Shown: positions 19,618 through 39,222 of the stretch, piece by piece | Layout: each line of letters opens with the position of its first letter | Numbering within the stretch: position 1 is the stretch's first letter | Assembly (NCBI RefSeq): GCF_004151485.1 | Contig: NZ_SBFF01000004.1 | Span: forward strand, 1 to 64,000 | Direction of reading: 5' to 3' | Origin: Sphingosinicella sp. CPCC 101087 | GTDB taxonomy: Bacteria > Pseudomonadota > Alphaproteobacteria > Sphingomonadales > Sphingomonadaceae | Length of the DNA stretch: 64,000 bases | Position numbers and translations under genes: made by a program | Notes under the pieces: generated by a model | Databases searched by the model: none | Told to the model about the DNA's origin: nothing | Seen by the model: the letters and a program-made list of their open reading frames with translations, nothing else

Positions 19618-20082
19618 TCAGGTGTGGATGCGATCAAGCAGGGACATCAGCGTCTCCACTTCCTTCTTGGTGAAGCGGCTCTTCAACCAGCGCTCATGCT
19701 CCCAGATGCATCCGCGCGCGCGCAATAGCATCTTGTCTCCTTCGTCGGTCAGATAGAGCGTCTTGCGGCGCCGGTCCGGCGGCGACGGCCCGCGGCGCAG
19801 ATAACCCCGCGCTTCCAGGCGGTTCACGATTCCCATCGTCGTCGCGCGATCCATGTGCAGGCGCTGTGCGAGGTCGGTCTGGGCAATGCCGGGATTGTCG
19901 CTCACCAGCCACAGGACGGACACCTGCTTCTGCGTCAGGTCGAGATCGGTGAAGGTCTCCATGAAGTGCCGGTACACGGCAACGTAGGCGAGGCGGATGT
20001 GGAACCCCAATATGTCCTTGATCTCGCCGACGTCGCTCAGGTCGACCGGTTCCACAGCGGGCTTCGCGCCGGATTGGATCAA
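19618..20082 (-). CDS. MarR-family transcriptional regulator
   Basis: A 154-residue winged-helix repressor-type protein. The recognition region is TDLAQRLHMDRATTMGIVNRLEARGYL and the wing carries PPDRRRKTLYLT, both standard MarR features. I start at TTG 20082 because GGGGGAGG lies eight bases upstream; an ATG at 20109 is in frame but has its ribosome site adjacent to the codon. MarR proteins in lignin loci usually sense aromatic CoA esters or phenolics (FerC-type in SYK-6). It stands at the edge of the accessory block, and an operator-like sequence similar to those before the block's operons lies 42 bases upstream of its start, which suggests self-control and a regulon. Confidence 0.85.
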   Translation of the reverse strand: MIQSGAKPAVEPVDLSDVGEIKDILGFHIRLAYVAVYRHFMETFTDLDLTQKQVSVLWLVSDNPGIAQTDLAQRLHMDRATTMGIVNRLEARGYLRRGPSPPDRRRKTLYLTDEGDKMLLRARGCIWEHERWLKSRFTKKEVETLMSLLDRIHT

Positions 20083-20123
20083 CGCAGTACCTCCCCCATT
20101 GTGACGCATCTCCCAGGTTCGAA

Positions 20124-20147
20124 TTGTGCGTGTAGCGTAGCTTTCGC
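20124..20147 (+). promoter_or_regulatory. Operator-like site upstream of the MarR gene
   Basis: Begins TTGTGCGTGTAGC and ends TTTCGC; matches the site at 26484 at 15 of 26 aligned positions counted by eye. It lies 42 bases ahead of the MarR start. The weaker members of the set, so tentative. Confidence 0.35.
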
Positions 20148-20356
20148 CGAAAGGAGAGATGCCTTCGCAGATTCCCCGAGGACGCGCGCTTTCGCCGGCC
20201 TGGATTGGCCGCCCCTGGTGGAGGCTGACCCCTTCGGCCTGGAAGTGGAAGGGAAATCCCGCCACATCTCGACGGCGCCTTTTACAGCGTGCCGCCCGAT
20301 CCGCAATTCCCGCGACATGGCAAGGCGAGCGGGATCGCCCCGACGAGAGCGATGCT

Positions 20357-20671
20357 CTACGTGCCTTTGTTGCGGGCGACACTTTCCTCCATGAGCGCCA
20401 GCTGTTCGGGCGTCGCCGGCGGCTGGTTCGCCTTCCAGTCGGAATAGGGCATGCCGTAGACCATCTCGCGCGCCGTCTCGCGGTCGATCGGCTTGCCTTG
20501 TTCGGCGCTCGCCTCCGCAACCCAATCCGCGAGGCAGTTGCGACAAAAACCGGCGAGGCCCATCAGGTCGACATTCTGCGCATCCTTGCGGTGACGCAGG
20601 TGGGCGACAAGGCGGCGAAACGCCGCCGCTGCGACGCCATCGTCCATCTCGGGCAAGTCGTTGTTGGTCAT
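20357..20671 (-). CDS. DUF1244 family protein
   Basis: A 104-residue soluble protein with the conserved cysteine/tryptophan core GFCRNCLADWV and the downstream MVYGMPYSDWKANQ that mark DUF1244. Function of the family is not known to me. Last of a leftward aldehyde dehydrogenase-transporter-DUF1244 run; its ATG overlaps the transporter stop (ATGA). DUF1244 genes occur widely in alphaproteobacteria without lignin genes, so its presence here may be incidental. Confidence 0.82.
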   Translation of the reverse strand: MTNNDLPEMDDGVAAAAFRRLVAHLRHRKDAQNVDLMGLAGFCRNCLADWVAEASAEQGKPIDRETAREMVYGMPYSDWKANQPPATPEQLALMEESVARNKGT

Positions 20672-22293
20672 AAAGGTTCTCCGGCGGCACGGGCCCGATC
20701 GATCAGGCGCGCCTCGTCTAGCGGCAGACGGCGAATCAGACCGATCAGCAGCACGATCAGGACCGGGCCCAGCCAATAAAGGCTGAGCATCGCCCAGGCC
20801 AGGTCGCCGCCGTTGAGGTCGCTCATCAGGCCGACCGCATAGGGGCCCAGACCGAGGCCGATAATGGTCACGGACAGGATGTAGAAGCTGATCACGATGC
20901 CGCGCATCCTCGGCAGCACCAGGTCCAGCAATGTGGCATAGATGGACGGCAGCCACATGGTGAGCGCGATCGCATAAGCGGCAAACCACAGATAGAAGCG
21001 GGTCAGATCGGGCGCGGTGAAGGTGAGGAAGGCGAAAACCGGCGAGACGACCAGCGACGCGAGAGTGACATAGATCCGTCCACCACGGATCCGCTTGTGG
21101 GCCCAGTCGGCCACAGGCCCGGCGATAAGCGGGCCGATGATTCCGATGACGGCGCTCATGACGCCGAAGACGAGGCCGACGCGGGTCGGGCTCTCGCCGA
21201 AATGCTGGATGAGATAGGCCGGAGTCCAGCCCATCACGCCATAATTGATGACCGTCTGCAGCGCGGCAATCGTGAGGGTGAGGAACGTCGCGGGCGATCG
21301 GGCGATCAGGACGAAGGCCGGGCGGTCGCCGAGCCGAAGCGACTGAAGCCAGTTCAGCATCACATAGGCGCCGAAGCCGACAATGAGCCATTGCAGCGCA
21401 TTGCCGCCGATCGCGAAGCCGCCGAGCTGAAGCGGCTGGACCCCTGGCCGCAGGGAGTCGGTCCAGCGCGTCAGGCCGTACATGGCGGCGACGATGACGG
21501 CGAGGCCGCCGACGTTGAACGCATATTCCGCCGCGCTCGCGCGGCGCCGGGCGAAGGCCAGCCAGTTGGAGACGGGAAGGATGGCGGAGAGCGTGTTCCA
21601 GCTCGCGCGGAAGGGGTGCGGATCGACATGGGGCGCGAGGCCGTCGGCGGCGCCGCGGGGCGGCTCAGGAAGCCGCCACAAAAAGAAGCCGATCACCAAC
21701 CCCGGCAGCGAGGCGGCGAGGAAGGCGGCCTGCCACCCCTTGATACCGAGCGGCGCGCCCTCTCCCTGCGGCCAGACCGCGTCCCAGGCATCGGCCGTCG
21801 TCCCGCCCAACACCAGCGCGCCGCCCAGGCCCAAAGCCACCGCAGCCGCGATCCACGAGGTGACCATGCCGCGCTTTTCCTTGGGGAAGGAATCGGCAAG
21901 GAGCGACATGCCGGCAGGTTGGACGCTCGCTTCGCCGACGCCGACGCCGAGGCGGGAAAGCGCAAGCACACCGAAGCTGTTGGCGAAACCGGCAAGCGCC
22001 GTCGCCGCCGACCAGCCGATGATCGAAAGGCTGAGCAACCGCGTGCGTATCCAGCCGTCGGCAAGGCGGCCCAGCGGCATCGAGAAGAGCGCATAGAAGA
22101 GGGCGAAAACGGTGCCGTAGAGCAGCCCCATCTCGGCATCGGCGATGCCGAGGTCGGCCTTGATGCGCGGCACCAGAATGGCGAGGATCTGGCGGTCGAC
22201 CATGCTCATCGCCTGGGTGAGGGCGACCAGGATCAGGGCCGTCCAGGCAAGGCGACCACCCAACCTTGGCGCCCCGGCTTCCGGAATCGTCAT
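20668..22293 (-). CDS. MFS transporter, likely aromatic or organic anion uptake
   Basis: A 541-residue inner-membrane protein. Helix 1-2 region TQAMSMVDRQILAILVPRIKADLG and the loop GRLADGWIRTR place it in the major facilitator superfamily group common in sphingomonads (spinster/hexuronate-like). It is longer than the usual 420-450 residues because of an extended central loop (about residues 230-300) with extra hydrophobic segments, so 12-14 helices are possible. Start ATG 22293 follows AAGGATAAGGG; four bases separate it from the upstream dehydrogenase stop. Context suggests import of a lignin-derived compound. Confidence 0.8.
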   Translation of the reverse strand: MTIPEAGAPRLGGRLAWTALILVALTQAMSMVDRQILAILVPRIKADLGIADAEMGLLYGTVFALFYALFSMPLGRLADGWIRTRLLSLSIIGWSAATALAGFANSFGVLALSRLGVGVGEASVQPAGMSLLADSFPKEKRGMVTSWIAAAVALGLGGALVLGGTTADAWDAVWPQGEGAPLGIKGWQAAFLAASLPGLVIGFFLWRLPEPPRGAADGLAPHVDPHPFRASWNTLSAILPVSNWLAFARRRASAAEYAFNVGGLAVIVAAMYGLTRWTDSLRPGVQPLQLGGFAIGGNALQWLIVGFGAYVMLNWLQSLRLGDRPAFVLIARSPATFLTLTIAALQTVINYGVMGWTPAYLIQHFGESPTRVGLVFGVMSAVIGIIGPLIAGPVADWAHKRIRGGRIYVTLASLVVSPVFAFLTFTAPDLTRFYLWFAAYAIALTMWLPSIYATLLDLVLPRMRGIVISFYILSVTIIGLGLGPYAVGLMSDLNGGDLAWAMLSLYWLGPVLIVLLIGLIRRLPLDEARLIDRARAAGEPL

Positions 22294-22297
22294 TCCC

Positions 22298-23743
22298 TTA
22301 TCCTTCGTGCACGGCCTTGAGCACGAGGCAGGCCATGAGACCCTCCGGCCCGTCCTCGTGCCCGTGGCCGGACCATTTGACACCGCCGAACGGCGAATCG
22401 GCACCGCCGATCATCACCGAATTGATCCCGACCATGCCCGATTCGATCTCGCGCGCGACGACCTTCTGGCGACGCGAATCCTTCGTCCAGGCATAAGCGG
22501 CGAGGCCGTAAGGAAGCCGGTTGGCTTCGGCGATCATCTCCTCCTCACTCCGAAAAGGATTCAGGATCGCGACCGGGCCGAACGGCTCTTCGTTCATGAT
22601 CTCGGCGTCGGCCGGGACTTCGGAGAGGACCGAGGGGGCGTAGAAATAGCCCTGATTGCCGATCCGTTCGCCGCCTGCGTGGAGCTTGCCGCCTCTGGTC
22701 CTCGCATCTCCGATCAGCCGCTCCATCGCGTCGGGCCGGCGCGAATTGGCCATCGGGCCCATCTTCGTCTCGGGGTCCAGACCGTCGCCGACCTTCACCT
22801 TCTTCGCCCGCTCGGCGAAGCCGGAGACGAAGGCGTCGAAAACGTCCTCCTGCACGATGAAGCGTGTCGGCGAGACGCAGACCTGACCGGCATTGCGATA
22901 TTTGGCCGCCACCATCACGTCGAGCACCCGGTCGACGTCCACGTCGTCGAACACCAGCACCGGGCCGTGGCCGCCCAGCTCCATCGTGGTGCGCTTCATG
23001 TCCTCGGATGCCAGCTTCATGAGATGCTTGCCGACGACCGTCGAGCCGGTGAAGCTCAGCTTGCGGATCACCGGCGAGCCGAGCAGATGGCGCGACACTT
23101 CGTCCGGCACGCCGAACACGGCCTGCGCCACCTCCTTGGGAAGGCCCGCATCGAGCAGCGCCTGGAGGACTCCGAGCGCGGAGGCCGGCGTCTCCTCGGC
23201 GGACTTGAGGATCACCGAACAGCCCGCGGCGATCGGAGCGCCGAGCTTGCGTCCGGGATTGCCGATCGGAAAATTCCACGGTGCGAAAGCGGCGACCGGC
23301 CCGACCGGCTCGTAGCTTACCGTCGAGCGCTGCCCGGCGGGTCGGACGAGCTGCCGCCCGTAGAGGCGCTGGCATTCGGCGGCGTAGAAATTGAACAGGC
23401 CGACATTCATCATCACCTCGACCCGCGCCTCGGCGAAGGTCTTGCCTTCCTCCATCGTGGCGATCCGAGCGAGATCGTCGGCGCGCTCGGCCATCAGGCG
23501 CGCCGCCCCCTGCAGCACGGCAGCGCGCTGCTGCGGCGTCGAATCCCGCCAGATCCTGAAACCCCGCGCGGCGGCATCGAGGGCCCGATCGAGATCCTCG
23601 GGCCCGGCGAGAGGAAGCTCGCCCAGCGAATCGCCGGTCGCCGGGTTGCGGACCGTGAAAGTGCGTCGGTCGCCGGCGGCGACGCGCTCGCCGTCGATGA
23701 TCATGTACAGATTCGGATATTGGGTCGTCCCGGCCCCGGCCAT
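22298..23743 (-). CDS. NAD(P)+-dependent aldehyde dehydrogenase (succinate-semialdehyde dehydrogenase-like)
   Basis: A 481-residue ALDH. The general-base Glu (ELGGHGPVLVF), nucleophile Cys (NAGQVCVSPTR) and EEPFGPVAI are intact; the overall look (IDGERVAAGDRRTFTVRNPATG, FGVPDEVSRHLL) is that of the succinate-semialdehyde dehydrogenase branch. GAGAGGAGTAGAGT precedes the ATG at 23743. First gene of a leftward three-gene operon, divergent from the LigD-like dehydrogenase with an operator-like site between them. In this block an aromatic aldehyde from side-chain breakdown is a plausible substrate; genuine succinate semialdehyde is the alternative. Confidence 0.83.
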   Translation of the reverse strand: MAGAGTTQYPNLYMIIDGERVAAGDRRTFTVRNPATGDSLGELPLAGPEDLDRALDAAARGFRIWRDSTPQQRAAVLQGAARLMAERADDLARIATMEEGKTFAEARVEVMMNVGLFNFYAAECQRLYGRQLVRPAGQRSTVSYEPVGPVAAFAPWNFPIGNPGRKLGAPIAAGCSVILKSAEETPASALGVLQALLDAGLPKEVAQAVFGVPDEVSRHLLGSPVIRKLSFTGSTVVGKHLMKLASEDMKRTTMELGGHGPVLVFDDVDVDRVLDVMVAAKYRNAGQVCVSPTRFIVQEDVFDAFVSGFAERAKKVKVGDGLDPETKMGPMANSRRPDAMERLIGDARTRGGKLHAGGERIGNQGYFYAPSVLSEVPADAEIMNEEPFGPVAILNPFRSEEEMIAEANRLPYGLAAYAWTKDSRRQKVVAREIESGMVGINSVMIGGADSPFGGVKWSGHGHEDGPEGLMACLVLKAVHEG

Positions 23744-23792
23744 ACTCTACTCCTCTCACGCCGTTCGACACGGCCCTTGCTTCATGAAGCCA

Positions 23793-23820
23793 ATTGTATT
23801 GAACGCTTACGAATAACAAT
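23793..23820. promoter_or_regulatory. Operator-like near-palindrome between divergent ALDH and C-alpha dehydrogenase
   Basis: ATTGTATT on the left and AATAACAAT on the right flank GAACGCTTACG; the arms form an imperfect palindrome. The core TTGTAT...CTTACG...CAA matches the site at 26484 at 17 of 26 positions. It is 50 bases from the ALDH start and 83 bases from the SDR start. Confidence 0.55.
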
Positions 23821-23903
23821 GAGGGTTCGGCAACCGTCTTGGCGATTGCCGGCGTTTCCCGCCCCGTGAACCGGGAAACGGGCTGCTACAGGAGGGCGAG
23901 CGG

Positions 23904-24821
23904 ATGCAGAATCTTCCCGGAAAGACGGCCTTCGTCACCGGCGGCGCCTCGGGCATCGGCCTGGGCATCGCCAAGGCGCTGAAGAAGGCCGGCATGAACG
24001 TCGTCATCGCCGACATACGCCAGGATCATCTCGACGGGGCCGTCGCCGAACTCGGCACGGACGCGGTGCTGGCGCTCCGGCTCGACGTCACCGACCGGGC
24101 GGCCTTCGCCGCGGCCGCCGACGCGGCCGAAGCGCGTTTCGGCAGGCTCCATCTGCTCGTCAACAACGCCGGCGTGGCGGTGGTGGGGCCGGTCGACCTG
24201 GCGAGCTTCGGCGACTGGGACTGGACGATGAGCGTCAATCTCGGCGGCGTCATCAACGGGATCGTGACGATCCTTCCGCGCATCCTCAGTCACCGCGACG
24301 GCGGGCATATCGTCAACACGGCGTCCATGTCCGGCCTGATGCCGCATCCCGGCGCCGTCATCTACACGACCAGCAAAGCGGCGGTGATCGGCCTGTCCGA
24401 ATCGATGCGCGGGGAGCTGGAGCCCAGGGGCGTCATCGTCTCGGCCTTCTGTCCGGGGGCCGTCCAATCCAACATCGCCGAATCGGGCAAGACGAGGCCG
24501 CCCGAATATGCCGACACCGGCTATGCCGAGACGGACAGGAGGCGCCAGCAAGGCGGCGACTGGCTGCACCTGTTCATGACCAAGGAGGAAGTCGGCGAGC
24601 GGGTGCGCGAGGGCATCGAGAATGACGAGCTCTATATCCTCACCCATCACGAATTTTACGACGGCGTGAAGGACCGCGCCGAAGCGATGGTCGCCGCCGT
24701 GCCGGAGCGCGAAGAGAATCCGGAATATAAGGCGATGTTCGCCATGCTGTTCCGCAACCCGATCCACGCCCAGGAGCGGGACCGGCAGACCCTCAAGAAG
24801 GGGAAGAATGCCGAGCCGTGA
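23904..24821 (+). CDS. SDR-family dehydrogenase, LigD/LigL-like aryl-glycerol C-alpha dehydrogenase
   Basis: A 305-residue short-chain dehydrogenase, longer than the usual 250. Cofactor motif TGGASGIGLGIA at residues 12-23, NNAGV near 92, and the catalytic Tyr-x-x-x-Lys in YTTSKAA. Beyond the core it has NIAESGKTRPPEY..TGYAE and a long C-terminal tail with NDELYILTHHEFYDGV, features shared with LigD, LigL, LigN and LigO of SYK-6, which oxidise the benzylic alcohol of beta-aryl ether dimers. It converges on a LigF-like glutathione transferase 31 bases away, the enzyme needed next. The stereochemical preference cannot be told. Confidence 0.8.
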   Translation: MQNLPGKTAFVTGGASGIGLGIAKALKKAGMNVVIADIRQDHLDGAVAELGTDAVLALRLDVTDRAAFAAAADAAEARFGRLHLLVNNAGVAVVGPVDLASFGDWDWTMSVNLGGVINGIVTILPRILSHRDGGHIVNTASMSGLMPHPGAVIYTTSKAAVIGLSESMRGELEPRGVIVSAFCPGAVQSNIAESGKTRPPEYADTGYAETDRRRQQGGDWLHLFMTKEEVGERVREGIENDELYILTHHEFYDGVKDRAEAMVAAVPEREENPEYKAMFAMLFRNPIHAQERDRQTLKKGKNAEP

Positions 24822-24832
24822 AGGAGCTCGGC
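24810..24832. terminator. Short hairpin between convergent SDR and GST genes
   Basis: GCCGAGC (24810-24816) and GCTCGGC (24826-24832) with a 9-base loop, overlapping the SDR stop. Weak, no T-run. Confidence 0.35.
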
Positions 24833-24852
24833 GGAAGGATGAACCCGTCCGT

Positions 24853-25617
24853 TCAGCGGGCGTGCCCCGACCAGGTGCGCAGCCCAGGCTCCGTATGGTC
24901 GGGCATGTTCAGCGCCTCCTGGACCGCCGGCCGCGCCGTGAGGCGTTCGCGCCAGTCGACCAGGCGGGGGCAGCGGCTGGCGATCTCCATCTCGGGGAAC
25001 ATCCGCTCCACCATCATCCCGCAATGGCTGTAGAAGTTGACGTCGGCGAGGGTGAACATGTCGCCGGCCAGCCACGCCGTCTCCCCGAGCTGCGCCTCGA
25101 CCTTGTCGACAGCGACCTCGATCTTGCGGGTCGCGTTGGCGAGATCGGCCTCGCTGAAGCCGGAGCGGGCAGTCCGCCATTTCTCCCGCTGCTCGTGCAG
25201 CGGGATGCGCTCGAGCAACTTCTCGAACTCGCCCGATTCGATCTTGCGCGCGATGATTCCGATCAGGCGGTGCCAGCCATGCATCGAGACGAAGTTCATC
25301 ACATGCTCGTCGACGAACTTGTTCCAGTAGCGCATCCGCGCGTTGCCGGCCGGCGTATTCGGCCGCAAGGGCGGCCGGTCGGGAAAGGCGTCTTCGAGAT
25401 ATTCGTTGATGACCGTCGTGTGGGTGACGATCGCCCCGTCATGATCGAGCACCGGCACCTGGCCCTCGGGATTGATCGCCAGGAACCAGGACTCGTGCTG
25501 CTCGAACTTGTGCAGGTTCACATAGACGCTCTCGAACTCGAGCCCTTTCTCGAACAGAGGGATCATCGACTTCAGCGAATTGGCGAGCGGCTCCGCGTGA
25601 TAATATTTGAGGGCCAT
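24853..25617 (-). CDS. Glutathione S-transferase, LigF-like candidate beta-etherase
   Basis: A 254-residue GST: thioredoxin-fold N domain (1-80) and helical C domain. Position 13-14 is Asn-Ser (EPLANSLKS), as in LigF, and the next segments (FEKGLEFESVYVNLHKFEQHESWFLAINP, GQVPVLDHDG, TVINEYLEDAFPD) follow LigF closely. LigF-type enzymes use glutathione to cut the beta-O-4 ether of C-alpha-oxidised lignin dimers. Immediately downstream of the CmcJ-like gene (7 bases, same operon) and convergent with the C-alpha dehydrogenase, which makes this role likely. Start ATG 25617; an in-frame upstream extension is possible but lacks a ribosome site. Confidence 0.82.
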   Translation of the reverse strand: MALKYYHAEPLANSLKSMIPLFEKGLEFESVYVNLHKFEQHESWFLAINPEGQVPVLDHDGAIVTHTTVINEYLEDAFPDRPPLRPNTPAGNARMRYWNKFVDEHVMNFVSMHGWHRLIGIIARKIESGEFEKLLERIPLHEQREKWRTARSGFSEADLANATRKIEVAVDKVEAQLGETAWLAGDMFTLADVNFYSHCGMMVERMFPEMEIASRCPRLVDWRERLTARPAVQEALNMPDHTEPGLRTWSGHAR

Positions 25618-25624: not shown

Positions 25625-26458
25625 CTATCTCCAGTAAGCGAAGGCGCGGATCTCGACAGAGGCACGCGGCACCGCGTCCTTGGGCGCGCCCGGATCGGCG
25701 AAGGCGACGTGCGGACAGCCGACGATTTCCGGATCGGCGGTATCGAATTGCTTGAAGATCAGCGCCTCGCCGGGCGTCATGTCGCGATAATAATACCAAC
25801 GGTGGCGAGGGCTGGCGCGGAAGAGCGAGGATCCGAAGCGAAATTCCTCGATTCCCACTCCGTCGACCCGAGCCTCGCCGGTCACCCGCTCGGCTTCGGT
25901 GACCGACGGCGCCGCGCAGACGGCAAGCGGCATGTCCTGCGGTGGCGGCGTCAGCACGCGCCAGATATTGAGGCCGACATAGCGGCCGGCCAGCAAGGCA
26001 CCGCGATCCGGATGGTCCGCCACGCTCCGGGCGGCGAAATCGTCGAAGCTCTCCCGCGACACGTCGACATGGACGAAGCCGGCGGGGAGCGAGTTGACGA
26101 AGGCCTCGCGCCGATCGTTCCTGACGAAGCGAAGGACGGTGCCGCGGGCGACGACATGGTCGGCGCCCGTGAGCTCACGGATCAGCACCTCGATCTCGCG
26201 CGGATAGATCGACTCCACCGTCGGGGTATCGGTGAAATCGCCGACCTCGCTACGGTGCGGCACGAGCGTGAAGCCCTCGCGCTCCAGGCTCGGCGCCGGA
26301 TCGGCCTGGCGCGCATCCTCGATGCCGACGCAATGCTTCTCGAGCATGAGATTGTCTCGCGCGTGATCCTTCGCATAGAAATAGGGCATCGAATCCATCG
26401 GCCCGAGATAGTTGATCTCGGCCTCGACGGTTCGCGGCGGCCGCGCGATGTTCGCCAT
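25625..26458 (-). CDS. CmcJ/NvfI-family putative oxygenase
   Basis: A 277-residue soluble protein of the CmcJ/NvfI (AsaB-like) group, whose characterised fungal member NvfI is an Fe(II)/2-oxoglutarate-dependent oxygenase. Candidate metal ligands are His130 and Asp132 in GFVHVDVS and His250 in GCPHVAF, with Arg271 in VEIRAF as a possible 2-oxoglutarate anchor; these assignments are mine from spacing, not from alignment. Also typical are VLRFVRNDRR and the aromatic cluster RWYYYRDM. Start ATG 26458 follows GAGAGGAA. First gene of an operon with the LigF-like GST; a TTGTAT operator-like site lies 25 bases upstream. Substrate unknown; a lignin-derived aromatic or aliphatic acid is a guess. Confidence 0.75.
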   Translation of the reverse strand: MANIARPPRTVEAEINYLGPMDSMPYFYAKDHARDNLMLEKHCVGIEDARQADPAPSLEREGFTLVPHRSEVGDFTDTPTVESIYPREIEVLIRELTGADHVVARGTVLRFVRNDRREAFVNSLPAGFVHVDVSRESFDDFAARSVADHPDRGALLAGRYVGLNIWRVLTPPPQDMPLAVCAAPSVTEAERVTGEARVDGVGIEEFRFGSSLFRASPRHRWYYYRDMTPGEALIFKQFDTADPEIVGCPHVAFADPGAPKDAVPRASVEIRAFAYWR

Positions 26459-26586: not shown

Positions 26587-27339
26587 TCAGTCCAGCCGCA
26601 GTGTCCCGAGCATGCCGCCGTCCACCGCCCAGCTCTGCCCGGTGACGTGGCTCGCCGCATCCGAGAGGAGGAAGGCGGCGACTTCGGCGACCTCCTCGGC
26701 CGTGCCGACCCGCGCCTGCGGGACCCGTCCGGCAAGATGGCCCAGGGCGCCCGCCGCAAGCCCATCCAGCATGGGCGTTGCGATGAAGCCGGGGATGAGG
26801 CAGTTCACGCGGACATTGTAGGGCGCCGCCTCGATGGCTGCGGCACGGGCCAGGCCGAGCACCGCATGCTTGGACGCGACGTAAGCGGCGTTGTTGGCCA
26901 TGCCGCGCTCGCTCGCCAGGCTGCCGGTGACGAGGATCGCGCCGCGGCGCCGCTCGATCATTCCGGGCAGGACTCGCTTGATCGCTCGAAACGGTCCGGT
27001 GAGGTTGACCGCGACCACCGACTCGAAATCCTCATCGGCATAATCGGCGATCGGTGAGAAGCGGCCGCCGTTGCCGGCATTGGCGAACAGCCCGTCGACC
27101 GGCCCGAAATCGGCCGCCGCCGAATCGAGCGCCGAAAGCAGGGCACCCTTGTCGGCCATGTCGGCCACCGCGAAGGCGGCGTGGCTTCCGATTTCCGCAA
27201 CCGCCCGCCTCAGCTTTTCCTCGCTCCGGGGGATCAGGGTCACGCGCGCGCCGCGAGCGGCGAGCAGACCGGCCGTTGCGCGCCCGATCCCGGTCGAGCC
27301 GCCGGTGACGACGACGTGCCGACCGGAGAAGTCGGTCAC
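26587..27339 (-). CDS. SDR-family oxidoreductase
   Basis: A 250-residue classical short-chain dehydrogenase: TGGSTGIGRATA cofactor motif near residue 11, NAGNGG, catalytic Tyr in YVASKHAVLG and the terminal GQSWAVDGGM. The start is GTG at 27339, sharing four bases with the stop of the upstream amidohydrolase gene (GTGA), so the two are coupled. Likely oxidises or reduces an alcohol/ketone in the same route. Unlike the SDR at 23904 it has no LigD-like C-terminal tail, so I do not assign a C-alpha dehydrogenase role. Confidence 0.8.
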   Translation of the reverse strand: MTDFSGRHVVVTGGSTGIGRATAGLLAARGARVTLIPRSEEKLRRAVAEIGSHAAFAVADMADKGALLSALDSAAADFGPVDGLFANAGNGGRFSPIADYADEDFESVVAVNLTGPFRAIKRVLPGMIERRRGAILVTGSLASERGMANNAAYVASKHAVLGLARAAAIEAAPYNVRVNCLIPGFIATPMLDGLAAGALGHLAGRVPQARVGTAEEVAEVAAFLLSDAASHVTGQSWAVDGGMLGTLRLD

Positions 27340-31487: not shown

Positions 31488-32496
31488 CTACGTGCTTCGC
31501 GAAGGCAGCACCTCCCTCGAGGACCTGGCGATGGTCGAGCGCGACGTGCCGCGGCCCGCTCCGGCCGAGGTGCTGGTCCGAGTCCGCGCCTGCTCGCTGA
31601 ACTTCCGCGACCAGTCGATCCTGGCCGGCAAATATTTCGGCGGTAAGGTCCCGCAGGATCAGGTGCCCCTGTCGGACGGGGCGGGCGAGGTGGTCGAGGT
31701 CGGCGAGGGAGTGACCCGCTTCGCTGCGGGCGACCGGGTCGCCTCGTCCTTCTTCCTCAACTGGACCGAAGGTCCGCCGCGGCCCGACGCCGGCCCGGCC
31801 CTCGGCGCACCGCCGGCGCCGGGAATGCTCGCCGAATATGTCGCCTTGCCCGAGCGCGCCGTCGTTCCGATCGCCGACAATCTGAGCTTCGAGGAGGCCG
31901 CCACCCTGCCCTGTGCCGGCGTGACGGCCTGGAATGGTCTCGTCCTCGGCGCGGCGCCGCTGCATCCCGGCCAGGACGTGCTGCTGCTCGGCACGGGCGG
32001 CGTGTCGATCCTGGCGCTGCAGATCGCCGTGGCGGGCGGCGCCAACATCGTCATCACCTCCTCCTCCGACGACAAGCTGGCGCGGGCCGAGCAACTCGGC
32101 GCGAAGCAGCTCGTCAACTATCGCCAGATCGAGGAATGGGGGAGGGAAGCCTATGGCCGGTTCGGCCGAGCCGGCGTCGGCAAGGTGATCGAGGTGGGCG
32201 GCTTCGGTACGCTGCCGCAATCGATGCAGGCGGTCGGCTGGGGCGGAGAGATCGCGATGATCGGCGTCATGACCCGCGGCGGCGACACCGCACCCCATCC
32301 GCTGATGGTCAAGGGCGCGAGCTTGCGCGGGATCATGGTCGGCAGTCGGGCGATGGCGATCGACCTCAATCGCGCGATCGAGGCGGCCGACATCCACCCT
32401 GTTATCGACAAGGTCTTCCCTTTCGAGGAAGCGGCCGAAGCCTATCGGTACCAGGCGTCGCCCCATCTGTTCGCCAAGGTGGTCATCGCGGTTTGA
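31480..32496 (+). CDS. MDR-family NAD(P)-dependent alcohol dehydrogenase/quinone reductase-like protein
   Basis: A 338-residue medium-chain dehydrogenase/reductase. N-terminal GroES-like fold (LNFRDQSILAGKYFG, LSDGAGEVVEVGEGV) and a Rossmann domain with VLLLGTGGVSILALQ near residue 165. The usual catalytic-zinc Cys/His pair and the four-Cys structural zinc cluster are absent, so it is a zinc-independent member closer to quinone oxidoreductases. It overlaps the acyl-CoA synthetase stop by eight bases and is the last gene before a convergent repeat region. It may reduce an enone or oxidise a side-chain alcohol; not decidable here. Confidence 0.8.
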   Translation: MRSYVLREGSTSLEDLAMVERDVPRPAPAEVLVRVRACSLNFRDQSILAGKYFGGKVPQDQVPLSDGAGEVVEVGEGVTRFAAGDRVASSFFLNWTEGPPRPDAGPALGAPPAPGMLAEYVALPERAVVPIADNLSFEEAATLPCAGVTAWNGLVLGAAPLHPGQDVLLLGTGGVSILALQIAVAGGANIVITSSSDDKLARAEQLGAKQLVNYRQIEEWGREAYGRFGRAGVGKVIEVGGFGTLPQSMQAVGWGGEIAMIGVMTRGGDTAPHPLMVKGASLRGIMVGSRAMAIDLNRAIEAADIHPVIDKVFPFEEAAEAYRYQASPHLFAKVVIAV

Positions 32497-32634: not shown

Positions 32635-33300
32635 CTACTCCACCACCGCGAACGCGAAGCCGTCCCAGCCCTTGGCGCCGACGGTCTGGATCGCGGTGGC
32701 GCTGAGCCGCGGCTCGCTCGCCAGCAGGTCGACGAAGCGGCGTATGCCCTGGACGCCGGGATTGACGCTGTCGCCGTCCACCACCTCGCCGTCGCGAACG
32801 ACATTGTCGCCGATAATGGCCGTGCCGGGACGCGAAAGCCTCAGCGCCCAGGCGAGATAGACGTCCTGATTGGCCTTGTCGGCGTCGATGAAGACGAGGT
32901 CGAACGGCCCGTGGCCGCGGGCCTCCACCTTCGGCAGAAGGTCGAGCGCCGCGCCGGTCCGGACGTCCACCCGATCGTTCATTCCGAAGCGAACGAGATT
33001 GGATCGGGCGACCGCGGCATGGCGCGGCTCATATTCGAGCGTGACGACCCGCCCCTCGGGTCCCACCGCGCGCGCCAGCCATAGGGTCGAATAGCCGCCC
33101 AACGTGCCGATCTCGAGCACGCGGCGCGCCCCCATCGCCCGGGCGAGGAGATGGAGGAACTTGCCCTGGAGCGGCGACACGTCGATCTCGGGCAGGCCCG
33201 CCCGGGCATTGGCTTCGAGCAGCCGGTCATGATCGCCATCGCCGGCGAGCAGGCGCTCGGCGAACCAGGCGTCGACGCGGCTCCACTCTTCCGAATCCAT
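32635..33300 (-). CDS. Class I SAM-dependent O-methyltransferase (caffeoyl-CoA/catechol OMT family)
   Basis: A 221-residue cation-dependent O-methyltransferase. The SAM-binding segment VLEIGTLGGYSTLWLARA is near residue 60, the acidic VTLEYEP at about 85, the metal-binding Asp of DLVFIDADKANQ near 135, and GDNVVRDGEV near 162. Such enzymes methylate vicinal phenols (caffeoyl-CoA, catechols). It is the 3' gene of a leftward group with an acyl-CoA synthetase and two GSTs, 100 bases after the synthetase. A methylating enzyme inside a demethylation locus is unexpected; it might protect catechols or act on a CoA ester. Confidence 0.85.
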   Translation of the reverse strand: MDSEEWSRVDAWFAERLLAGDGDHDRLLEANARAGLPEIDVSPLQGKFLHLLARAMGARRVLEIGTLGGYSTLWLARAVGPEGRVVTLEYEPRHAAVARSNLVRFGMNDRVDVRTGAALDLLPKVEARGHGPFDLVFIDADKANQDVYLAWALRLSRPGTAIIGDNVVRDGEVVDGDSVNPGVQGIRRFVDLLASEPRLSATAIQTVGAKGWDGFAFAVVE

Positions 33301-33400
33301 GTATTGTCTCCTCCCGGCGAGTCCGCTTGAAATAGACGATCCTGTTGTCCTGCCGCCCCCAGTCGCGGGACCATCGTCGCCCGTTTAACGCTGCCGCCGA

Positions 33401-34960
33401 TCAGTGCACCATCCGCTGCTGGTTGCCCCAATATTCCCTGCGCAGCGCCTTCTTGTCCATTTTCCCGGCGGCGGTGCGTGGAATCGAATCGGCGAACGAG
33501 ACCGACTTGGGCGCCTTGACGCCGCCGAGCCGGGCCTTTGCATGGGCGATGATCGCCGGTTCGTCGATCCCATCGGCGACGACGACGGCATGGACCGCCT
33601 CGCCCCAATGCTCGTGCGGGACGCCGATCACCGCGCATTCGCGGACCGCGTCCAGCTCCATGATCGCCGCCTCGACCTCGGCCGAATAGACGTTGAAGCC
33701 GCCGGTCACGACCATGTCCTTCTTTCGGTCGACGATGAACAGATAGCCGTCCGCGCTGAAGCGGCCGACGTCGCCAGTATGGTGCCAGCCGAAGGTGCGG
33801 AACTCGGCGGTCGCCTCGGGAAGCTCGAAATAGCCCTTGCTGACCAGCGCGCCGCGGACGCAGATCTCGCCCGCCTCCCCCGGCGGCAGGATGTTGCCCT
33901 CGTCGTCCATCACGGCGACCCGGACCGAATAGCTCGGCTTGCCGCAGCTCGCGAGCAGCTCGGGCCGATCGCCCGCCGCGGCCTTCGCCACCGTCTCCGG
34001 CGGCAGCCAGCAGGTGATCATCGGCGATTCGACCTGACCATAGGCCTGGCACATGCACGGACCGAACGCCTCGACCGCCTGACGAAGCTTGTCCGGCGAC
34101 ACCGCCGATCCGACCAGGACGAAGATTTTCAGCGACGAAAGATCGAAGCGTTCGCGTCGGTCGTGGCCCAACAGGGCGTACAAGGCGGTCGGCGGCAGAT
34201 ACAGGTGGGTGACGCGGTGCCGCTCGATCGCCTCGAACACCGCCTGCGGATCGAAGCCGGGCAGGATGATCTGCGTGGCGCCGAACTGCATCGTGGCAAG
34301 CGCGACCGGTCCGGCGGCGTGGGTGAGCGGCGCGACGACGAGATTGACCGGGCGATCGGTACGACCGCCAATGGCGTTGCCGACCGTCTCGATCATCGTC
34401 CCCCAGCCGAGATTGGTGACCTCGACCCCCTTGGAAGGGCCGGTCGTGCCGCCGGTCGGGAAGATGCCGACGATCTCGTCCGGATTGCCGAAAGGATCGC
34501 TCGGGTCCTTCCAGCGCCCGCCGTCCACGCCGCCGATGAACGCTTCCATCGACGGATCGCCGTCATGCGCCTTGTCGAGGCAGACGAAGTGGCGAAGCGT
34601 CGGCACGCGCCGCTTCAGTTCGGCGACGTCGCCGGCAAGGCTGCTATGGTAGAACAGCCACTCGCAGCGGACGTAGGCGAGATAGGCGGCATTGGCATCG
34701 ATGGCGTTGCGGGTGTTGAGCGGGATCCACTTGGCGTTGGCGCGCCACAGGCCGAGCAGGGCGAGCAGCACGTCGACATTGTTGGCCGAATAGAGCGCGA
34801 CCGGCGCCTGGCCCGGAAAGCCGGCATCCTCCATCGCGACGGCGATCCGCTTCGTCAGCGCCTGCGCCTCTGCAAAGGTAAAAGCGCGAGCCGAATCCTG
34901 CATCGCGATCCGGGTCGGATCGACCGCGGCGCCGCGGTCGAAATAGTCGATGGCCCTCAC
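33401..34960 (-). CDS. AMP-forming acyl-CoA synthetase (candidate feruloyl/coumaroyl-CoA ligase)
   Basis: A 519-residue ANL ligase. P-loop PTGGTTGPSKGVEVT near residue 170, then PPTALYALLG, AYGQVESPMITC, WHHTGDVGRFSADGYL and the catalytic Lys in PRTAAGKMDKK. Start is GTG at 34960 with GGGAG upstream. Twelve bases from the GST stop, so in one leftward operon GST-GST-synthetase (and probably OMT). A FerB-type hydratase-lyase, which needs feruloyl-CoA, is encoded on the far side of the GST pair, which makes this the better candidate for hydroxycinnamate activation, though the synthetase at 29973 is possible. Confidence 0.84.
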   Translation of the reverse strand: MRAIDYFDRGAAVDPTRIAMQDSARAFTFAEAQALTKRIAVAMEDAGFPGQAPVALYSANNVDVLLALLGLWRANAKWIPLNTRNAIDANAAYLAYVRCEWLFYHSSLAGDVAELKRRVPTLRHFVCLDKAHDGDPSMEAFIGGVDGGRWKDPSDPFGNPDEIVGIFPTGGTTGPSKGVEVTNLGWGTMIETVGNAIGGRTDRPVNLVVAPLTHAAGPVALATMQFGATQIILPGFDPQAVFEAIERHRVTHLYLPPTALYALLGHDRRERFDLSSLKIFVLVGSAVSPDKLRQAVEAFGPCMCQAYGQVESPMITCWLPPETVAKAAAGDRPELLASCGKPSYSVRVAVMDDEGNILPPGEAGEICVRGALVSKGYFELPEATAEFRTFGWHHTGDVGRFSADGYLFIVDRKKDMVVTGGFNVYSAEVEAAIMELDAVRECAVIGVPHEHWGEAVHAVVVADGIDEPAIIAHAKARLGGVKAPKSVSFADSIPRTAAGKMDKKALRREYWGNQQRMVH

Positions 34961-34972
34961 TCCGGCACTCCC

Positions 34973-35743
34973 TCACCCCCAGCGGTTGATCTCCGGACCG
35001 GGCGCCCAGCTTTTCATCGGAACGCCGGTCGGTGACAAGGCCAGGGCCTGCCGCACCGAATCCCTGGCGGCGACTCGGCCTAGCCAGGCGCGGGTAATCG
35101 GCGCATCCGCGAACGCCTCGGGCACGAGATCGACCATGCCCGCCAGCCAGGCATAGGTTTCGAGATCCGCGATGGTGAAGGCGCCGAGGATCCAGTCGCC
35201 CTCGATCCTCTTCTCGAGCCGCTCGACCGCCAGCCGGATCTTGGCCCGGGAATCCTCGAGCTGCGCCTCGGGATATCGGCCTTCGCGCACGGCGCGCCAG
35301 CGTTCGGCCAGGTCGGCACTGGCGATGCGGCCGACCAGAGCCTCGAAGGCCTCGTCGCTCATCGCGCGAAGCTTTGGTGTCAGGTGCGCGCGGTTGCCGA
35401 GAAAGGCGGCCGCCGGCGCCACCCGCTCGATGATGAAGCGGCACCACATCTCCATTTCCCATCGGGCATGGGGGTCGGCAGGCTGGAGGCCGCCACCGCG
35501 CGATTCATCGAGATATTGGGCGAGGAAGACGGAATCGGCCATCGCCTCGCCCTCGACGACGAGGACCGGCCCCTCACCCTCGATGCTCATTTCGACCTCG
35601 CGGCCGACGACGGCGCGGCAATGCCGCTCTCCCTGCGTCAGATCCAGCGCAATGAGATCGGCCTCGGCGCCCGTCTCGAAAAGCGCGGCCAGCACGGTCA
35701 ACGAAGGGCCGTTCGGTTCGCCGTGATACAATGCGGCGGTCAT
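34973..35743 (-). CDS. Glutathione S-transferase family protein, second member of an overlapping GST pair
   Basis: A 256-residue GST-fold protein. The N-terminal LYHGEPNGPSLTVLAALFETG resembles LigF-type proteins (Ser14) but the central FQHE-type segment is diverged and the proline before the third strand is replaced (VEGEGPVLVVEG), so catalytic competence is uncertain. The C domain is recognisable by AFTIADLETYAWLAGM. Its start overlaps the stop of the GST at 35740 (ATGA). It may be a partner subunit: heterodimeric GST beta-etherases (BaeA/BaeB) have been described in Novosphingobium. Confidence 0.78.
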   Translation of the reverse strand: MTAALYHGEPNGPSLTVLAALFETGAEADLIALDLTQGERHCRAVVGREVEMSIEGEGPVLVVEGEAMADSVFLAQYLDESRGGGLQPADPHARWEMEMWCRFIIERVAPAAAFLGNRAHLTPKLRAMSDEAFEALVGRIASADLAERWRAVREGRYPEAQLEDSRAKIRLAVERLEKRIEGDWILGAFTIADLETYAWLAGMVDLVPEAFADAPITRAWLGRVAARDSVRQALALSPTGVPMKSWAPGPEINRWG

Positions 35744-36513
35744 GGTTGTACCTCCCGCTCGAATATTTTCACCCGCTTCACCATCTCAGTGCGGCCGAGC
35801 GCCCAGGTCGCCTTCGTCGCCGGCCGTTCGTAGATCCGGCGCAGCCAGTCGATGATGCACGGCGTCGTCTCCTCGTTCGACAAATGCGGTTGCGACAAGG
35901 GCAGGGCGTAGGCGAGGTTGAAGCCGTTCACGTCGGCCAGCGAATATTGGTCGCTCGCCAGCCACTCGCGCCTGGACAAGGCTTCCTCGAGCATCGAGAT
36001 TCCAACGCCGACGCGGCGCTGCGATTCGGCGATCTCCTCCTCGCAGAAGAGGTTGTAGATCGCCTTCCTCCATGCCGTCCGCCGCTCAGGCAGAGGGATC
36101 CGTTCGATCGCCGCCTCCAGCTCCTTCGGATCCCGATGGCGCACCGCGGGCCCGACGAAGACGCTCCACCCGATCATGCTGAAGGAAGGCGCGAGCCACT
36201 GGTCCATGAACTTCATCCACCAGCGCACCCGCCAGCGGTCGCGCGGGTCCGGCGGCATCAAGGCGGGCCCGTCGAACGCCGCGTCGACATATTCCATGAT
36301 GGCCGTCGACTCGGTCAGCACCCTGTCGCCGTGCAGCATCGCCGGGATCGTGCCTTGCGGGTTGATCGCCAGATATTCCGGCTTGTGCTGATCGAAGTTC
36401 AGCATGTCGATGTAGCGGCTCTCAAAGGGCACGCCTTTCTCGGCGAGCGCCAGCATCGGCTTGCCGCTATTGGCATTGGGTTCCCAGTGGAACAGGGTGA
36501 CTTTGTCGCTCAT
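35740..36513 (-). CDS. Glutathione S-transferase, LigF-like candidate beta-etherase, first of the pair
   Basis: A 257-residue GST with the Asn15-Ser16 pair in LFHWEPNANSGKPML, followed by FESRYIDMLNFDQHKPEYLAINP, GTIPAMLHGD and TESTAIMEYVD, the LigF layout. C domain has YSLADVNGFNLAYAL. The ATG at 36513 (MSDKVTLFHW) has GGGAGAGG 14 bases upstream, somewhat far. Translationally coupled to the next GST. Divergent from the FerB gene with an operator-like site in the gap. Likely cleaves ether or thioether bonds of lignin dimers; stereospecificity not predictable. Confidence 0.82.
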   Translation of the reverse strand: MSDKVTLFHWEPNANSGKPMLALAEKGVPFESRYIDMLNFDQHKPEYLAINPQGTIPAMLHGDRVLTESTAIMEYVDAAFDGPALMPPDPRDRWRVRWWMKFMDQWLAPSFSMIGWSVFVGPAVRHRDPKELEAAIERIPLPERRTAWRKAIYNLFCEEEIAESQRRVGVGISMLEEALSRREWLASDQYSLADVNGFNLAYALPLSQPHLSNEETTPCIIDWLRRIYERPATKATWALGRTEMVKRVKIFEREVQP

Positions 36514-36586
36514 ACCGGTGGCTGCGCCTCTCCCGATTTGCCGGGGTTCGATGCCGCGGCTTGTTATTCCCTTCGGCCGAACTAGG

Positions 36587-36601
36587 ATGTAATACATACA
36601 A
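36587..36601 (-). promoter_or_regulatory. Operator-like site between divergent GST and FerB genes
   Basis: On the minus strand reads TTGTATGTATTACAT; the inner GTATGTATTAC is nearly palindromic. Shares TTGTATGT with the site at 26484, then diverges. 73 bases from the GST start and 93 from the FerB start. Confidence 0.4.
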
Positions 36602-36694
36602 GTTTCGAGCTTGGGTCAATGCCGCGGCGGACCCGCCCGGAACGTGCGCAGGGCCCGTCCGAAATGGGCGGCCCGGACGGAGAGGGCCGGTGGC

Positions 36695-37537
36695 ATGAGC
36701 GAAGGCGCGGACGTCGTCACCTGTCGGGTCGCGGAGCGGATCGCCTGGGTCAGCTTCAATCGGCCCGAGAAGCGCAACGCGATGAGCCCACAGCTCAACC
36801 GGCGAATGATGGACGCGCTCGAGGCGCTCGAATTTCGCGACGATGTCGGCGTGCTCGTGCTCAAGGGCGAAGGCGAGGCCTGGTCGGCGGGCATGGATCT
36901 CAAGGAATATTTCCGCGAGACCGAAGCCGAAGGCCTGGGGGCCATCCGCCGCTCGCAACGCGAATCCTACGGCTGGTTCCGGCGGCTTCGCTGGTACGAG
37001 AAGCCGACCATAGCGATGGTCAACGGCTGGTGTTTCGGCGGCGGGTTCGGGCCGCTCTTCGCCTGCGACCTCGCCATCGCCGCCGACGAGGCGAAATTCG
37101 GCCTGTCCGAGATCAATTGGGGCATTCTCCCGGGCGGCGGCGTCACCAAGGCGGTGGTCGATCTCCTGTCGATGCGGGACGCCATGTATCTCGCGCTCAC
37201 CGGCACTCTGATCGACGGCAGGACTGCGGCGGCCTGGAAACTGGTCAACGAGAGCGTGCCGCTCCACCGGCTCGAATCGCGGGTGACCGAGCTCGCCCGG
37301 GTGCTGCTCGAGAAGAATCCGGTCACGGTCAAAACCGCCAAGGACGCCGTCCGGCGGGTCAAGGACATGACCTACGACAATGCCGAGGATTATCTGGTGC
37401 GCGCGCAGGAAGCGGCCAATTTCCTCGACGGAACCGAGGGCCGGAAGGAAGGCGTCCGCCAGTTCATCGACGAGAAGAGCTACAAGCCGGGACTGGCGGC
37501 CTACGACCCTGGAAAGCGAAATGGGGAGAAGAACTGA
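36695..37537 (+). CDS. ferB: Feruloyl/p-hydroxycinnamoyl-CoA hydratase-lyase
   Basis: A 280-residue crotonase-fold enzyme that hydrates feruloyl- or coumaroyl-CoA and splits the product to vanillin or 4-hydroxybenzaldehyde plus acetyl-CoA. Near-diagnostic segments: RPEKRNAMSPQLNR, GEAWSAGMDLKEYFRE (oxyanion hole), TIAMVNGWCFGGGFGPL, FGLSEINWGI (catalytic Glu) and the terminal KSYKPGLAAYDPGK, all shared with the Pseudomonas hydroxycinnamoyl-CoA hydratase-lyase. ATG at 36695 follows GGAGAGGG. It is followed by the GMC oxidoreductase 23 bases downstream in an operon. Vanillin would then need one of the aldehyde dehydrogenases. Confidence 0.93.
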   Translation: MSEGADVVTCRVAERIAWVSFNRPEKRNAMSPQLNRRMMDALEALEFRDDVGVLVLKGEGEAWSAGMDLKEYFRETEAEGLGAIRRSQRESYGWFRRLRWYEKPTIAMVNGWCFGGGFGPLFACDLAIAADEAKFGLSEINWGILPGGGVTKAVVDLLSMRDAMYLALTGTLIDGRTAAAWKLVNESVPLHRLESRVTELARVLLEKNPVTVKTAKDAVRRVKDMTYDNAEDYLVRAQEAANFLDGTEGRKEGVRQFIDEKSYKPGLAAYDPGKRNGEKN

Positions 37538-37560
37538 TCCCCAGGGGACGGAGAGGATGA

Positions 37561-39222
37561 ATGAGCCAGGAGATTGAAGCCGACTATATTGTCGTGGGCG
37601 CCGGCAGCGCGGGCTGCGTCCTCGCCAACCGGCTCTCGGCCGATCCGGCCAACCATGTGCTGCTGCTCGAAGCCGGCGGCGACGACCGGCCGCTGCACAA
37701 TCTCAAGCAATTCTGGTCGAACCTGCTGATCCACACGCCGATCGGCTTCGGCAGGACGCTGAACGATCCCAAGGTCAACTGGATCTACGAGACCGAGCCC
37801 GATCCGGGCACCGGCGGGCGTCCGCACAAATGGCCGAAGGGCAAGGTGCTCGGCGGCTCCTCCTCGATCAACGGCATGCTCTACGTGCGGGGGCAGGCGG
37901 CGGACTATGACGGCTGGGCGCAGATGGGCTGCACCGGCTGGTCCTATGACGACGTGCTCCCCTATTTCCGGCGCGCGCAGAATCAGGAGCGCGGCGAGTG
38001 CGGCATCCACGGCGTCGGCGGCCCGCTCAACACCTGCGATTTCCCCGAGCAGAACGAGGTCAGCCAGGCGCTGCTCGACGCCTGCGTCGAGGCGGGCATC
38101 CCCTATGTGCCGGACGTCAATTCCGGCGACCAGGAAGGGGTGACCTGGTTCCAGCTCACCCAGCGCGGCGGCAAGCGCTGCTCGACCGCGGTCGGCTATC
38201 TCCACCCGGTCGAGGGGCGGGCGAATCTGCGCGTCGAGACCGAGGCGCAAACGACCCGGATCCTGTTCGAGGGCAAACGCGCGATCGGGATCGAATATGT
38301 CCAGGGCGGCGAGACCAGGGTCGCACGCGCCAATGCCGAGGTGATCCTCGCCGCCGGCGCGGTCGCCTCGCCGCAGCTCCTAGAAGTGTCGGGAATCGGC
38401 GGCGGGCCGGTCCTCCAGGCGATCGGCATCCCGGTCCTGCACGAGGTGCCGGGCGTCGGGGAGAATCTGCAGGACCATTATATGATCGGCTGCCAGTGGC
38501 AGGTGAAGCCCGAATATAAGACGGTCAACGAGCTGTCCCACGGACTCAACCTGGCGCGCGAGATCGTCAAATATGCGTTCGGCAGGAAAGGACTGCTCAC
38601 CTATGCGGTCGCCCATGTCGTCGCGTTCACCCGGACCCGCGAAGGGCTCGAGCATCCCGACGTGCAGTTTCACCTGATGGCGGCCAGCATGGACCTGGAG
38701 GCGCTGGCGCGGACCCAGTCGCTGGTGCTCGAGAGAAGTCCGGGCGTCACCTGCACGCCCTGCCAGCTCAGGCCCGAATCCCGGGGCTCGATCCACGCGA
38801 AATCGGCCGATGCGCGCGTTTATCCGACGATCGTTCCCAACTATCTCGCCGACCCGCTCGACCAGGAATGCGCGATCGCACAGCTGAAGCTCGCGCGGCG
38901 GATCATCAACCAGCCGGCCATCGCGAAATATCTGGCCAGCACGGCCGACCATTTCGGCGACACGGACGAGTCGATGCTGGCTTATGCGCGCATGGCCGGC
39001 GGAACGCTCTACCACGCCGTCGGCACGTGCCGGATGGGCAGCGATCCGGCCGCGGTGGTGGATCCGGAACTGCGGGTGAAGGGGGTCGACGGGCTGCGCG
39101 TCGTCGACGCCTCGATCATGCCGAAGATCAGCTCGGGCAACACCAACGCGCCGACGATCATGATCGCCGAGAAGGCTTCGGACATGATCCTGGGCCGATC
39201 GTCGCTCAGGCAGGCGGCCTGA
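37561..39222 (+). CDS. GMC-family FAD oxidoreductase
   Basis: A 553-residue flavoprotein of the choline dehydrogenase/alcohol dehydrogenase type. FAD motif [16 protein letters not shown] near residue 11, GMC signature 1 [17 protein letters not shown] near 97, signature 2 [17 protein letters not shown] near 262, and active-site His in [13 protein letters not shown] near 485 with a second in SSGNTNAPT. Ribosome site GGAGAGG. Co-directional with ferB. In SYK-6 a GMC enzyme (HpvZ) is reported to oxidise beta-hydroxypropiovanillone, the product of ether cleavage; given the GSTs nearby, a similar role is plausible. Confidence 0.85.

Follow-up and report, generated by a model that had tools for sequence, protein, structure and literature searches.

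The window analysed here is a 64,000-nt stretch of contig NZ_SBFF01000004.1 from Sphingosinicella sp. CPCC 101087, part of a 4.70-Mb genome in 44 contigs. Positions 19618..39222 hold a block of genes that includes a proposed aroylacetyl-CoA (vanilloylacetyl-CoA) hydrolase of the CouO/HpeF type, an amidohydrolase. Open reading frame scoring and family searches confirmed all the gene classes that the initial annotation had named. Its description of an accessory block for lignin side chains and aryl ethers was borne out by these classes, and its small divergent operons by the gene order and gaps. The amidohydrolase gene (27336..28205, minus strand; PF04909) belongs to a predicted unit with an aldehyde dehydrogenase (ALDH; 28344..29852, minus strand; PF00171, StyD model 646 bits, below the cut-off of 850), a short-chain dehydrogenase/reductase (SDR) that we call SDR2 (26587..27339, minus strand), possibly a 3-hydroxyacyl-CoA dehydrogenase, a predicted CmcJ/NvfI-family Fe(II)/2-oxoglutarate (2OG) oxygenase (25625..26458, minus strand; NF041278 252.8 bits, cut-off 80) and a glutathione S-transferase (GST), GST1 (24853..25617, minus strand). 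The successive gaps are 138, -4, 128 and 7 nt, the last separating CmcJ from GST1, and the 4-nt overlap agrees with the coupling of amidohydrolase and SDR noted initially.

The remaining units of the block are equally compact. GST3 (35740..36513), GST2 (34973..35743) and the AMP-forming acyl-CoA synthetase ACS2 (33401..34960; PF00501), all on the minus strand, follow each other with gaps of -4 and 12 nt. On the plus strand, a second such synthetase, ACS1 (29973..31487), overlaps an MDR-family zinc-type oxidoreductase (31480..32496; PF08240/PF00107) by 8 nt, and FerB, a predicted hydroxycinnamoyl-CoA hydratase/lyase (36695..37537; NF006588 464 bits, cut-off 276), is followed after 23 nt by a GMC oxidoreductase (37561..39222; PF00732/PF05199). 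A LigD-type C-alpha dehydrogenase of the SDR family (23904..24821, plus strand) stands alone, with its best PDB matches, 4ya6/4yae/4y98 at 240-194 bits, to sequences named 'C alpha-dehydrogenase'. An O-methyltransferase (OMT; 32635..33300, minus strand; PF01596) also stands alone.

The amidohydrolase has relatives at E<=1e-60 in 25 plasmid records. We opened the regions around it in 15 of these, and that of Sphingobium V4 by way of a DNA match; 12 were annotated and four were not. The relatives in the 12 annotated neighbourhoods were 45-67% identical over the full length (about 290 aa), and an acyl-CoA synthetase lay within about 6.4 kb in all 12. An enoyl-CoA hydratase or MaoC gene was present in ten, nine of which also had an SDR, and one plasmid relative is annotated as 4-hydroxyphenyl-beta-ketoacyl-CoA hydrolase. 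The make-up of these ten loci is also that of the Rhodococcus cou set. The hydratase, SDR and synthetase make-up is that of the Agrobacterium fabrum ferulate set, in which Atu1421 is called the beta-keto-thiolase of HMPKP-CoA (PMC7797058). In the other two annotated loci we found carboxylase, phosphatase, ligase and hydrolase genes, the combination known from the acetovanillone (Hpe) pathway. In Rhizobium leguminosarum BT01 there are two phosphoenolpyruvate (PEP)-type kinase genes, a biotin carrier, a biotin carboxylase, a further gene, a HAD phosphatase, an acetoacetate-CoA-type ligase and the amidohydrolase, as in the Hpe operon; Pseudomonas putida YC-AE1 has the same arrangement, but a Tm-1-like ATP-binding protein replaces the kinase pair. 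HpeE is a predicted synthetase and HpeF, a CouO homologue, a predicted hydroxyphenyl-beta-ketopropionyl-CoA hydrolase (PMC9618137, repeated in PMC13101465), and both papers propose that they act on hydroxyphenyl-beta-ketopropionate, which in the case of acetovanillone is vanilloyl acetic acid (VAA).

A tree was built from 33 proteins, and a 97/97 split in it joined the window amidohydrolase to 17 sphingomonad relatives and to seven of those from the annotated plasmid loci, separating them from LigI, LigJ and two further amidohydrolase groups encoded in these clusters. We rejected a LigI/LigJ duplicate on the basis of this tree and of blastp, which gave 24% identity or no match at E<=1e-5. Residues H12, H14, H156, H198 and D250, which we take from the superfamily to be metal ligands, were invariant where present among 25 amidohydrolase sequences. 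Family and context together suggest that the protein is most likely a CouO/HpeF-type aroylacetyl-CoA hydrolase. It shares with CouO, HpeF and Atu1421 the grouping with operon relatives and a partner CoA synthetase; unlike them, it has ALDH and GST genes around it as part of a beta-etherase cluster. The initial annotation had seen no place for it in known routes, and had raised the possibility of an undescribed route for a different unit of lignin. For the amidohydrolase such a route is not needed, given its family and context; the CmcJ oxygenase is still without a place. Our literature search, for which subscription papers were mostly outside the scope, found no assignment of this amidohydrolase in a sphingomonad, no CouO among the matches listed for sphingomonads, and no paper joining CouO, HpeF or ketopropionyl-CoA with Novosphingobium.

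We surveyed 298 genomes of the family, a single sample out of a larger group. Of these, 48 contained the amidohydrolase (E<=1e-60), or 22 of 96 when counted by genus, and 47 the CmcJ family (E<=1e-20). GST1 was found in 36 genomes (E<=1e-60), in 35 of them at >=69% identity; genome G144, at 45%, was dropped. Identity limits were also applied to GMC (26 genomes at >=63%, compared with 250 at E<=1e-100) and GST3 (21 at >=66%, compared with 27 at E<=1e-60). Amidohydrolase and GST1 occurred together in 34 genomes and only one of the two in 15, and the amidohydrolase overlapped with GMC in 25 genomes and with GST3 in 20. All ten pairwise Fisher tests gave P<1e-10, values that overstate independence because the genomes are related. 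At most 2.7 kb separated the amidohydrolase from GST1 in 29 of the 34 genomes, and three of the five exceptions had been assembled into about 160 or more contigs. The co-occurrence and closeness of the two genes are thus more than chance. Of the 21 genomes with GST3, 20 had the amidohydrolase, in 19 of these no more than 8.8 kb from GST3, and the last had a piece of it at a contig end.

Gene order was also conserved. Loci L080 and L078/L079 read, with extra genes in places, GST3-GST2-ACS2-pyrroloquinoline quinone (PQQ) dehydrogenase-ALDH-amidohydrolase-SDR2-GST1-DesC-like-LigM, and other loci hold parts of this order. Parasphingopyxis marina (L003) has GST3-GST2-ACS2-PQQ-ALDH-amidohydrolase-SDR2-CmcJ-GST1-FolD-DesC-like, with GMC further on. 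Relatives of ACS2 lie near GST2/GST3 in L003, L039, L079 and L080 and near GST3 in L086. Among 17 loci with the amidohydrolase, a lignin-pathway gene lay within 10 kb in 16, a CoA synthetase in eight, and an ALDH within 0.5 kb in eight.

This order fits the published locus numbers of the sphingomonad Novosphingobium aromaticivorans F199, in which metF is Saro_2860, ligM 2861, desD 2865 and pinVWX 2875-2877 (PMC12997858), desC is Saro_2864 (PMC8091115), baeB and baeA are Saro_2872 and 2873, clustered with NaLigF2 (2865) (PMC6369299), and Saro_2869, an ALDH, and Saro_2870, putatively PQQ-dependent, have been tested (PMC11323797). Saro_2860-2877 would therefore hold the same gene classes in the same order of ligM, desCD, ALDH and baeBA, with the amidohydrolase and SDR2 falling among Saro_2866-2868 and the window ALDH at 28344..29852 in the position of Saro_2869. 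No paper with the tags Saro_2866-2868 was found; among Saro_2866-2871 only 2869 and 2870 appeared in our literature search, and none was found for Saro_RS14535-14560. By these numbers the window differs from F199 in having CmcJ between SDR2 and GST1, ACS1-MDR, OMT and FerB-GMC, and in being without the DesC-like and PQQ-dehydrogenase genes. The combination, which had initially been described as unrecognised, is largely common to many sphingomonads and, by locus numbering, to F199, and we read the block as one local form of a lignin supercluster that is widespread among sphingomonads. The related statement that the functions are scattered in SYK-6 holds for ligDFEG and ferAB, which lie elsewhere there; ligABC, ligM and hpvZ share one region by locus tags, as do their proposed counterparts here, from ligC (SLG_12490) to hpvZ (SLG_12830) (PMC12997858).

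The three GSTs, all taken initially as LigF-like, seem to be of different kinds. GST1 scored 189.6 bits against SYK-6 LigF (4xt0) and the second GST of a relative, G050, scored 344.5 bits. We therefore rejected GST1 as the LigF orthologue; the group of this second GST is the likely one. A search of the genome with GST1 at E<=1e-10 matched the three window GSTs and no other protein. As the LigF scores point to the other group and only the window GSTs were matched, GST1 appears to be of the NaLigF2/DesD type. In relatives it adjoins the amidohydrolase region and stands beside DesC, LigM and BaeAB, although the DesC-like gene is absent from the window, and by its position relative to published locus numbers it would correspond to Saro_2865 (desD). 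GST3 and GST2, which scored 160.5 and 72.8 bits against LigF, look like a BaeA/BaeB pair. They share with the heterodimeric beta-etherase BaeAB two adjacent, overlapping LigF-related genes with an active-site Ser in each (N15-S16 in GST3, S14 in GST2), a pattern kept in relatives with a complete called start. The published residues are Asn14-Ser15 in BaeA and Ser14 in BaeB (PMC6369299). GST1 also has an Asn-Ser pair (N13-S14), so the motif does not single out BaeA, and the assignment is carried by the pairing and the cluster order.

Taken as a whole, we think it probable that the block degrades beta-O-4 and hydroxycinnamoyl side chains as far as vanillate, which is then turned into protocatechuate, with the amidohydrolase splitting VAA-CoA. 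The substrates and reactions in this scheme are predicted from gene content, family grouping, conserved neighbourhoods and co-occurrence. The LigD-type SDR would oxidise the C-alpha alcohol, and the BaeA/BaeB-like pair, possibly with GST1, would break the beta-ether with glutathione, which would be taken off by a lyase assumed to be encoded elsewhere. The GMC protein, which we propose to be an HpvZ-like oxidase, would convert beta-hydroxypropiovanillone (HPV) to vanilloyl acetaldehyde (VAL), the ALDH at 28344..29852 would convert VAL to VAA, and an AMP-forming synthetase would give VAA-CoA. The amidohydrolase would then release vanillate and acetyl-CoA, and LigM and LigABC would complete the breakdown of vanillate. 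Hydroxycinnamoyl-CoA products could be further substrates of the same amidohydrolase, SDR2 taking part where its gene is intact. GMC matches of 63-69% occurred in 25 other genomes of the sample, and matches of 71-73% near CmcJ in L005-L008.

This route would replace that of SYK-6, which has no HpeE/HpeF homologues and appears to use VceA/VceB after VAA (PMC9618137). F199 is reported to have an HPV oxidase and no VceA/VceB homologues, with the enzymes after VAA still to be discovered (PMC11837543, 2025). The HPV route, the operon relatives and the reported absence of VceA/VceB from F199 together make the amidohydrolase and a cluster synthetase the natural candidates for the step from VAA to vanillate and acetyl-CoA in F199-type sphingomonads. 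Acetovanillone as the source of VAA in this strain is weakly argued against by a search in which the genome gave no match to one carboxylase subunit (492 aa) encoded in the acetovanillone-type operon of P. putida; made with no positive control, such an empty result proves nothing by itself.

Several points weigh against this scheme. The link to CouO, HpeF and Atu1421 runs through operon relatives and is thus indirect, the tree split lies where long branches meet (a warning of the tool), and the match with F199 rests on published locus numbers. The similarity of ACS1 and ACS2 to the partner synthetases is low (21-37%), and to name either as the one serving VAA would be a guess. SDR2 is a generic SDR, only 32-33% identical to those in the CouN position, and is broken in Sphingosinicella terrae; a specific CouN orthologue was not supported. 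In the S. terrae locus (L002) only pieces of SDR2 were seen at 5350-6030, between an intact amidohydrolase and CmcJ. Four loci (L083, L084, L088 and L090) combine the amidohydrolase with FerAB or LigABC and have no GST at all, and L082 has it without any of the marker genes; its settings are thus not limited to the HPV branch.

These settings bear on the possibility that the amidohydrolase, with SDR2, serves only the beta-oxidative, CoA-dependent deacetylation of hydroxycinnamates known from Agrobacterium and Rhodococcus, its proximity to etherases being a regulatory convenience. In three sphingomonads (L083, L088 and L090) a gap of -3 to 6 nt separates the amidohydrolase gene from that of a FerA-type CoA ligase, a closeness that also counts in favour of the main scheme; FerB is near and no GST was found there. 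Further, ten of the 12 annotated plasmid relatives are in hydroxycinnamate-type operons, and FerB itself lies within the block. However, FerB already gives vanillin directly, the closest conserved partners in etherase genomes are the ALDH and GST genes, two relatives are in VAA-forming acetovanillone-type operons, and S. terrae has lost SDR2 and kept the amidohydrolase at 92.5% identity. We consider this explanation unlikely, though it is the strongest of the alternatives. A weaker one, which we regard as improbable, places the ALDH-amidohydrolase-SDR2-CmcJ-GST1 operon in syringyl/3-methylgallate catabolism, with GST1 as DesD and the other enzymes acting on ring-cleavage products. The inferred position of GST1 at desD (numbering of PMC12997858) and the adjoining LigM and DesC-like genes of relatives agree with it, but the window has no gene for the DesC-like hydrolase, a single gene outside it resembles this hydrolase at only 34%, and the grouping of the amidohydrolase indicates CoA thioesters. 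An undescribed branch using the oxygenase, amidohydrolase and OMT together is very improbable: CmcJ is without a pathway place and the OMT was seen only in the window among the compared loci, but the amidohydrolase family has a known reaction type, and the rest of the block, without CmcJ and OMT, is widespread and agrees with F199 in locus order. The OMT, one of the odd members in the initial annotation, had no match in the other loci compared, where the S. terrae contig stops before that point.

As the oxygenase has no pathway place, part of the idea of an undescribed step survives. The family model, metal-site residues and fold all fit a CmcJ/NvfI Fe(II)/2OG oxygenase. The structure model, built with eight sequences, had a mean pLDDT of 82.8 (62.7-82.8 among five models), and its best structural match was CTB9, an enzyme whose target is an aryl methoxy group in a fungal pigment. 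Known members belong to the synthesis of antibiotics and fungal natural products, whereas this one lies in a lignin cluster; we know of no earlier Fe(II)/2OG oxygenase of the CmcJ kind in lignin pathways, and a search on CmcJ/NvfI gave no title on lignin among the matches listed. H130, D132 and H250 align with NvfI positions 135, 137 and 250, the iron triad (PMC8292354, which prints His135-His137-Asp250, while the aligned chain shows H, D, H). The closest named relative with a CmcJ-like protein is S. terrae (78%). An aldo/keto reductase and a CmcJ-like oxygenase were observed directly or nearly after ligC in eight sphingomonad loci (L040, L043, L048, L050, L051, L053, L054 and L055). Gammaproteobacterial metagenome-assembled genome (MAG) contigs (L006 5957-11935, L007 460-6317 and L008 6217-13596) carry CmcJ-like, LigM-like, GMC, LigF-like GST and LigD-like SDR genes. 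We tentatively suggest, at somewhat less than even confidence, an undescribed Fe(II)/2OG-dependent step of lignin-aromatic catabolism that is common to sphingomonads, where its gene adjoins ligC or the etherase operon, and some gammaproteobacterial MAGs. In its boldest form, drawn from the match to CTB9, the enzyme would oxidise or demethylate methoxylated lignin intermediates; alternatively, it might act on a side-chain ketone such as HPV or VAA.

The block opens with a MarR-family regulator (19618..20082, minus strand; PF12802), followed by a DUF1244 gene, an MFS transporter (20668..22293, minus strand; PF07690) and an ALDH resembling succinate-semialdehyde dehydrogenase (22298..23743, minus strand; PF00171, TIGR01780 448.9 bits, below the cut-off of 646); by gaps, the predicted units are ALDH-MFS-DUF1244 and MarR. 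In L002, L039, L077, L078, L086 and L091, relatives of the transporter have the same ALDH and SDRs of LigD type as neighbours. SnoaL and SnoaL_4 genes were seen beside LigD-type SDRs in a neighbouring module of L040, L043, L050, L054, L055, L074, L079 and L085. SnoaL-type proteins have an NTF2-like fold. LdpA and PcfL are NTF2-family lyases (PMC12997858).

Beside the block, protocatechuate 4,5-cleavage genes span 7093..16940. The initial annotation had called this pathway complete; LigU (7974-9008, minus strand), LigK (9054-9728, minus strand), LigA (14718-15122, plus strand) and a LigB-type subunit (15124-15966, plus strand) are above NCBIfam cut-offs, as is LigM (4624..6030, minus strand; NF047885 920.7 bits, cut-off 580), a predicted tetrahydrofolate (H4folate)-dependent vanillate/3-O-methylgallate O-demethylase. 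LigI-like (7093-7977, minus strand) and LigJ-like (13699-14718, plus strand) genes were assigned by amidohydrolase fold and position only, and LigC-like (15987-16940, plus strand) by GFO/IDH/MocA fold and position only. A LysR gene lies at 11532-12758 (plus strand). A MetE-like methyltransferase gene was observed near such clusters at 18442-19551 in the window and in L072 and L074; possibly it disposes of methyl groups from H4folate-dependent O-demethylation. A long plus-strand open reading frame at 120-2174 had a weak coding score, and a promoter and terminator scan gave no excess over shuffled sequence.

The main results are a named candidate for the step reported as missing in F199, conserved in the same cluster as a BaeAB-like pair, and an oxygenase found repeatedly in lignin clusters but so far without a pathway place. 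The CmcJ oxygenase is a separate lead, tied to lignin pathways by gene order and fold alone. If the proposal for the amidohydrolase is right, one hydrolase family would join the beta-ether, hydroxycinnamate and acetovanillone side-chain routes at aroylacetyl-CoA, and strains that use lignin could be designed around one exit enzyme.

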